This document shows, in pieces, positions 51,841 through 52,282 of a stretch of 64,000 bases of DNA; position 1 is the first letter of the stretch, and each line of letters starts with the position of its first letter. The translations under genes were made by a program, and so were the position numbers. The DNA is taken from positions 186,001 to 250,000 of the forward strand of contig NZ_JAHKPH010000008.1 in the NCBI RefSeq assembly GCF_018860385.1, given 5' to 3'. The notes under the pieces are model-generated. The model had not been told where the DNA came from, ran no database searches, and worked only from the letters and a program-made list of their open reading frames with translations. Source of the stretch: Reinekea forsetii (GTDB lineage: Bacteria; Pseudomonadota; Gammaproteobacteria; Pseudomonadales; Natronospirillaceae).

Positions 51841-51916
51841 GTCCCGTTCGTCTAGTGGCCTAGGACACCGCCCTTTCACGGCGGTAACAGGGGTTCGAGT
51901 CCCCTACGGGATGCCA
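51841..51916 (+). tRNA. tRNA-Glu (anticodon TTC)
   Basis: A 76-base cloverleaf with acceptor GTCCCGT/ATGGGAC-type pairing (GTCCCGT at the 5' end, ACGGGAT at the 3'), anticodon arm CCGCC-CTTTCAC-GGCGG (anticodon TTC), T arm AGGGG-TTCGAGT-CCCCT, and an encoded CCA. Nearly identical to E. coli tRNA-Glu. Confidence 0.97.
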
Positions 51917-51988: not shown

Positions 51989-52063
51989 GCGGGAATAGCT
52001 CAGTGGTAGAGCACAACCTTGCCAAGGTTGGGGTCGGGAGTTCGAGCCTCCTTTCCCGCTCCA
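51989..52063 (+). tRNA. tRNA-Gly (anticodon GCC)
   Basis: A 75-base cloverleaf with acceptor GCGGGAA/TTCCCGC, anticodon stem CAACC/GGTTG around TTGCCAA (anticodon GCC), T arm GGGAG/CTCCT-type with TTCGAGC loop, encoded CCA. It lies 72 bases after tRNA-Glu, probably in the same transcript. A terminator and then a repeated 3' end follow. Confidence 0.97.
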
Positions 52064-52207
52064 AATTCTTAAAAGAAGCTAACCAGAAATGGTTGGCTTT
52101 TTTTTCGTCCCGACCCCAAGAGGTCAGGATCGAGCGTCGACCGGTTGAGCCTCCTTTCCCGCTCCAAATTTTTAAAAGAAGCTGACCAGAAATGGTTGGC
52201 TTTTTTT
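52044..52207 (+). repeat. Duplicated tRNA-Gly 3' end plus terminator
   Basis: About 62 bases from 52044 (GAGCCTCCTTTCCCGCTCCA, then trailer and terminator hairpin) recur at 52147-52207 with only about three changes, at a 103-base period. Each copy ends in its own terminator (AGCTAACCA or AGCTGACCA paired with TGGTTGGCT). The 41-base spacer is unrelated to the tRNA body except for a short GACC/GGTC-rich part. Copy two lacks the anticodon arm and is not a tRNA. Confidence 0.9.
52077..52105 (+). terminator. Terminator of the tRNA-Glu/tRNA-Gly transcript
   Basis: AGCTAACCA-GAAA-TGGTTGGCT (one G-U) followed by seven T. A second copy at about 52180-52207 backs it up. Confidence 0.92.
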
Positions 52208-52282
52208 ATGCCTGTAACTTTAGGTTACCTTGTGCTGTTATAAATAAGGCTAGCGCGGTGATTTCCGGACTAGCCTTAATCT

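Follow-up and report, generated by a model that had tools for sequence, protein, structure and literature searches.

The window, a 64,000-nucleotide stretch of the Reinekea forsetii genome, contains two tRNA genes whose 3′ ends are repeated downstream. One of these is tRNA-Gly (GCC; 51989–52063, + strand), which stands in an operon whose first gene is tRNA-Glu (TTC; 51841–51916, +); both genes were called by ARAGORN and by Rfam RF00005. The sequence of the tRNA-Gly tail, GAGCCTCCTTTCCCGCTCCA (52044–52063, +), comprises the end of the T-loop, the 3′ strand of the T-stem, the 3′ strand of the acceptor stem, the discriminator base, and CCA. It is followed by a first terminator hairpin of 15 bp with U at its end (52071–52104, +; fold z −5.56). 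The repeated unit opens behind this hairpin with an antisense fold-back piece, TCCCGACCCCAA (52108–52119, +), an inverted repeat that is the exact 12-nt reverse complement of tRNA-Gly positions 52028–52039 and spans only the variable loop and the T-stem. Aligning the copies then reveals AGGA, a remnant of the 5′ T-stem strand (52126–52129, +). Comparison with relatives further identifies a mini-hairpin, TCGA-GCG-TCGA, inside the T-loop of the copy (52130–52140, +), the counterpart of which in relatives is CTGG-NRCG-CCAG and CCGG-NRCG-CCGG. Just behind the mini-hairpin, both the tail scan and the sequence itself place a copy of the tail that matches the tRNA at 20 of 20 positions and ends in CCA (52147–52166, +). 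A second terminator hairpin of 16 bp, again with U at its end, completes the unit (52173–52208, +; z −5.79).

Taken together, the 20-nt tail, trailer, and terminator of tRNA-Gly (52044–52104) reappear at 52147–52207 with 2 mismatches in 61 nt, and the repeat can be extended to 72 nt at 90% identity with a period of 103. These values bear out the first-pass annotation, which had described a duplicated tail, trailer, and terminator hairpin with a 103-base period, and both hairpins are indeed strong. A simple terminator scan reported no terminator at either hairpin of the Gly locus, probably because the U-run sits inside the stem, and folding was therefore used. The part of the unit behind the terminator, taken alone, folds no better than shuffled sequences (z −1.2). 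Here the trailer and terminator have been copied along with the tail, unlike in Halomonas-type genomes, and because the trailer is included the array looks recently amplified. The other gene is tRNA-Val (GAC; tRNA call at 2265–2341, +), in which the same annotation had seen the same pattern. Its 18-nt tail and 5 nt of its trailer reappear 131 bp downstream at 2455–2477, where the tail scan places the tail copy ATCTGGATAGTCCTACCA (2455–2472, +) behind GGCCGCGACCGAAGGGAGCGC.

Repeated tails follow several other tRNA genes of this genome as well. We scanned the flanks of the 45 tRNA genes that were identified, seeking tail copies outside tRNA genes, and detected extra tails behind Ala-GGC (two), the two Asp-GTC genes (two and one), Arg-TCG (two), Val-GAC (one), and Gly-GCC (one), while the initiator Met is followed by a degenerate array of three units. 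Tail copies thus occur at six tRNA species or loci, Met being the degenerate case, and every copy found by exact scan ends in CCA. The proposal of a recurrent process, which had been drawn from two genes in one window, is strengthened by these further loci and by the many other genera described below. Chance can be ruled out as the source of the Gly repeat, given 61 nt with 2 mismatches and tail copies behind six tRNA genes.

In G392, a second genome of the species, copies are present behind the Ala, Asp, Arg, Val, and Gly genes. The two genomes differ in copy number at Gly (one here, three in G392), Arg (two and one), and Val (one and two), and G392 has two copies at Ala. Arrays therefore change length within the species. 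The three extra copies of G392 lie at the same Gly locus, which rules out an assembly error as the source of the repeat. The Val-Asp tRNA array lies at the ends of two contigs, C5 and C21 (L073 and L078). Assembly thus seems to be interrupted by tail arrays, and the copy numbers at these ends may be wrong. The initiator-Met units follow a pair of initiator-Met tRNA genes (L079, 2389–3000; contig C21 near 326400–327000). There are about three of them, each of 134 nt, in which the tail is degenerate, the acceptor region holds the insert GCGAATCGTCGCACCG, and an antisense piece resembles the T-arm and anticodon arm of the tRNA.

Most copies share an architecture in which the tail is intact and the T-loop is not, being broken up by GC-rich mini-hairpins. 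Gly, Pro, and Asp copies carry an insert of 16 to 17 nt where the T-stem meets the T-loop, which reads CTGG-NRCG-CCAG or CCGG-NRCG-CCGG, then CCGG. Arg and Val copies of this genome, as well as E. coli tyrT, have larger GC-rich hairpins (..CCGAAGGG..GCGAAGCGC..) within the T-loop. Glu copies differ, since the T-loop is intact in four of seven. Pairing within the insert hairpin reaches 97% across 19 Gly copies, and two of the four base pairs show double compensatory changes, of which slid controls have none.

We find the same arrangement in many relatives. A search blind to the hairpin, covering 391 genomes of the order, returned double Gly tails in 21 genomes from 16 genera; four of the cases listed were discounted, each holding a whole second tRNA gene, and in most of the remainder the hairpin is present. 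Conversely, the hairpin in its T-stem context has at least 113 matches in the GTDB loci examined, and behind at least 94 of them the tail of the upstream tRNA is copied. Several of the matches that have no tail copy represent this element too, lying at a contig end or bearing a worn tail. Hosts among the matches listed are mainly Halomonadaceae, along with Saccharospirillum, Reinekea, Marinobacterium, Thalassolituus, and Aestuariibacter. Across the class, covariance model R1 is uninformative below about 36 bits, as any tRNA-Gly tail scores about 31 bits, and G738 is the only genome outside the order that stands clearly above this background; its units have the same architecture. Three side observations concern individual genomes. 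In G008 (L248, contig C1 36000–38000), tRNA-Pro(CGG) is followed by at least seven tail copies with an exact 99-bp period and the Gly-type hairpin module. In other families (L107, L109, L123, and L125), some Gly tail units retain a D-arm or anticodon arm, which gives them the appearance of tRNA genes that eroded from the 5′ side while the tail survived. Finally, a typical gammaproteobacterial Gly tail unit is present in SKHB01000098.1 (L273), a contig that bears the label of a Microbacteriaceae MAG and has probably been mis-binned.

To locate the limits of the copied segment, 91 Gly units among the matches listed, picked by their hairpin with the tail only loosely required, were compared base by base with their own tRNAs. 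This sample is Halomonas-heavy and phylogenetically non-independent, and the statistics ignore kinship. Identity between copy and tRNA is 84 to 100% from −17 to CCA (the last 18 bases). Past CCA it falls to 67%, 52%, and then about 40%, and it drops upstream of the tail too. Furthermore, tRNA position 64 varies among genomes, and the copy matches the variant of its own host (CTCGT, CTCCT, or CTCTT), exactly so in 119 of the 146 listed. About 30 copies follow the tRNA variant even though their own T-stem is broken (GTGAG opposite CTCCT). Identity that ends at CCA, and tracking that persists in broken-stem copies, argue that those genomes maintain the match to the tRNA tail rather than the stem of the copy or the trailer. 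In 61 of 83 such Gly copies listed, a gene for tRNA-Glu or tRNA-Cys follows within 250 nt on the same strand. Most of these copies thus lie inside operons, and so within the precursor, where they must presumably be handled by tRNA processing.

We propose to view the repeat as an rtT-like tRNA-tail element, in which a unit of spacer RNA forms part of the tRNA precursor transcript, and we give this reading a probability of roughly 0.6. The unit consists of the antisense fold-back piece, a T-arm with a hairpin-interrupted loop, and an exact 3′-end copy of the tRNA upstream. At the Gly locus it would be made only when RNA polymerase reads through the first terminator, and the second terminator would stop the transcript. 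By analogy with E. coli rttR, tRNA 3′-end enzymes may then trim the unit to a CCA 3′ end and free it as a small RNA. The annotated extent of rttR, from 8 nt past the tyrV CCA to precisely the CCA that closes the following tail copy, suggests that a copy of this kind can form a mature 3′ end. A tail-bearing RNA is plausible for the same reason; the decoy for RNases or CCA-processing enzymes put forward in the first-pass annotation would be one hypothetical role for it. Its likeliest form is a CCA-ended tail mimic, and our preferred guess for a function is that of an acceptor-arm mimic or a sponge. The other process put forward there is unequal recombination. It can account for altered copy number between this genome and G392, and recombination is the likeliest cause of the change in array length. 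Plain unequal recombination is nevertheless insufficient alone, because in relatives identity stops at CCA while trailers differ, and because a conserved hairpin breaks the T-loop of the copy. The tail itself would be held equal to the tRNA either by selection or by conversion confined to the tail. If this is correct, the extra tail equals the tRNA's own tail and nothing beyond, and an old puzzle, the reason for spare tRNA 3′ ends within tRNA precursors, becomes testable.

A rival that we consider rather unlikely, yet a serious one for the Gly locus, is neutral tandem duplication. Slippage or unequal crossing-over would have doubled tail, trailer, and terminator, leaving functionless copies that are young or homogenized, with mini-hairpins generated by template-switch repair of palindromes. 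A recent duplication alone would explain the Gly locus, as the units here include trailer and terminator, and copy number is unlike in the two genomes of the species. The exact 99-bp units behind tRNA-Pro in G008, seven at least, point the same way, as do those units of relatives that resemble decayed tRNA genes with the anticodon arm kept. Duplication of this kind does not predict the boundary at CCA with differing trailers in the 91 related Gly units listed, and homogenization by RecA is not expected across 17 to 20 bp. Nor does it predict a hairpin at the same T-loop site in many genera of at least two orders, behind Gly, Pro, Asp, and Leu tRNAs.

Two further alternatives invoke mobile elements. 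Integrases commonly target the 3′ ends of tRNA genes, and the tail copies might be attachment sites left by such integrases, or decoys against them. An identical tail followed by a different trailer is the trace expected of insertion. Units of about 60 to 180 bp are too short for cargo, however, the hairpin breaks the T-arm, and no integrase was recognized by eye among the translations beside the array in the window, all of which makes this origin improbable. Across 2.9 million viral contigs, 0 matches to the Gly element pattern were found, compared with at least 94 in genomes, which speaks against an origin from phage or islands. About equally improbable, in our estimation, are REP/BIME-like palindromes mobilized by a Y1 (RAYT) transposase that came to settle behind tRNA genes by chance. 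Members of one enterobacterial BIME cluster resemble rtT (PMC2965389), and some dispersed repeats of G018 contain mini-hairpins of a similar kind. Against this, REPs are without the tail of a neighboring gene, and matches with the T-stem context lie almost exclusively behind tRNA genes, where checked. No Y1 transposase (PF01797) was found in this genome, and the dispersed look-alikes of G018 are other repeats; an origin by RAYT or REP is thus largely ruled out for this genome. Those repeats, GTTGGATTACGC..CTACCGGAGCGCCGGCCGATCCAACCTAC and GAGGCATGGACTGGTGCGCCAGCCCGGTCCGA..CCATGG, lie away from tRNA genes and contain the mini-hairpin of the tail units (L399, L412, L415, L417, and L419–L422).

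Among known systems, REP/BIME elements share with the units behind these tRNA genes the character of short, GC-rich, repeated hairpins that are transcribed, as we infer the present units to be. They are unlike them in being dispersed, in being linked to Y1 transposases, and in not copying the end of the neighboring gene. A second point of comparison is 3′ETS-leuZ of E. coli, a by-product of a tRNA precursor that serves as a small-RNA sponge according to a passage in PMC6191717 (citing Lalaouna 2015). It and the units discussed here would be alike in coming from a tRNA precursor. To our knowledge, 3′ETS-leuZ has no tail copy, no CCA end, and no repeat.

The closest known system is rtT, a feature that has been known from a single E. 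coli locus since 1978. The rtT (RttR) RNA was reportedly described by Bosl and Kersten in 1991 from the 178-bp repeats of tyrTV (Rfam RF00391). Features that define rtT are found here as well: the unit comes directly behind a tRNA gene whose strand it shares, a tail copy including CCA forms its end (20/20 at 52147–52166), mini-hairpins break the T-loop, and an antisense T-arm piece lies upstream. E. coli rtT and these units thus have in common a same-strand position behind a tRNA gene (and, in E. coli, the same transcript), tandem units, an antisense T-arm piece, a sense T-loop, GC-rich mini-hairpins, and an exact tail up to CCA. The mini-hairpin of E. coli rtT, GACCCGAAGGGCGAAGCGC, is also close to those of the Arg unit (GACCCGAAGGGCCGCGAAGCGC) and the Val unit of this genome. 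The Gly unit differs in its length (103 versus 175 to 178 nt), in having a terminator per unit, and in its single mini-hairpin. The small protamine-like protein Tpr is annotated in E. coli rtT only. The Rfam RtT model gave no match at E ≤ 1 in the arrays of this genome, and none genome-wide, whereas E. coli units score 112 to 138 bits. By the membership rule, the arrays fall outside RtT, while their architecture is like that of rtT, and we read them as a probable variant of the rtT kind.

The RtT model does find members elsewhere in the order, with matches above the cut-off in 13 of 195 genomes. The six places inspected follow Lys(TTT), Ser(GGA) twice, Tyr(GTA) twice, and Arg(CCG). The tail of the associated tRNA is copied at 17 of 17 positions in the Lys match, one Ser match, and both Tyr matches, and at 15 of 17 in the other Ser match; no tail copy was detected in the Arg(CCG) match. 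These units, which occur in other families of the order, have a longer conserved core than those here, and no extra terminator copy was noted in them. Folding indicates that the Lys unit, one Ser unit, one Tyr unit, and the E. coli Tyr units could form a long, acceptor-arm-like helix between antisense piece and tail that leaves CCA free. Such a helix is also possible in the Arg unit of this genome (z about −2); duplex energies gave none for its Gly, Val, Ala, and Asp units. In Pasteurellaceae, RtT lies near Asn and Lys tRNA genes, Actinobacillus RtT RNAs are visible on Northern blots, and rtT has been tied to the stringent response (PMC4986893). Our literature search found no description of a general tail-copy pattern behind tRNA genes.

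We advance a broader view only tentatively, at clearly less than even odds. RtT RNAs and these arrays might form one widespread class of tRNA 3′-end mimics, in which a portable hairpin core has its ends re-tailored to, and kept equal with, the tRNA upstream (Gly, Ala, Asp, Arg, Val, Leu, Pro, Lys, Ser, or Tyr), and which would act either on the maturation of tRNAs or on RNAs able to base-pair with the tail of the tRNA. If so, the feature known from one locus in E. coli would be the conspicuous member of a class that extends across many gammaproteobacterial tRNA operons.
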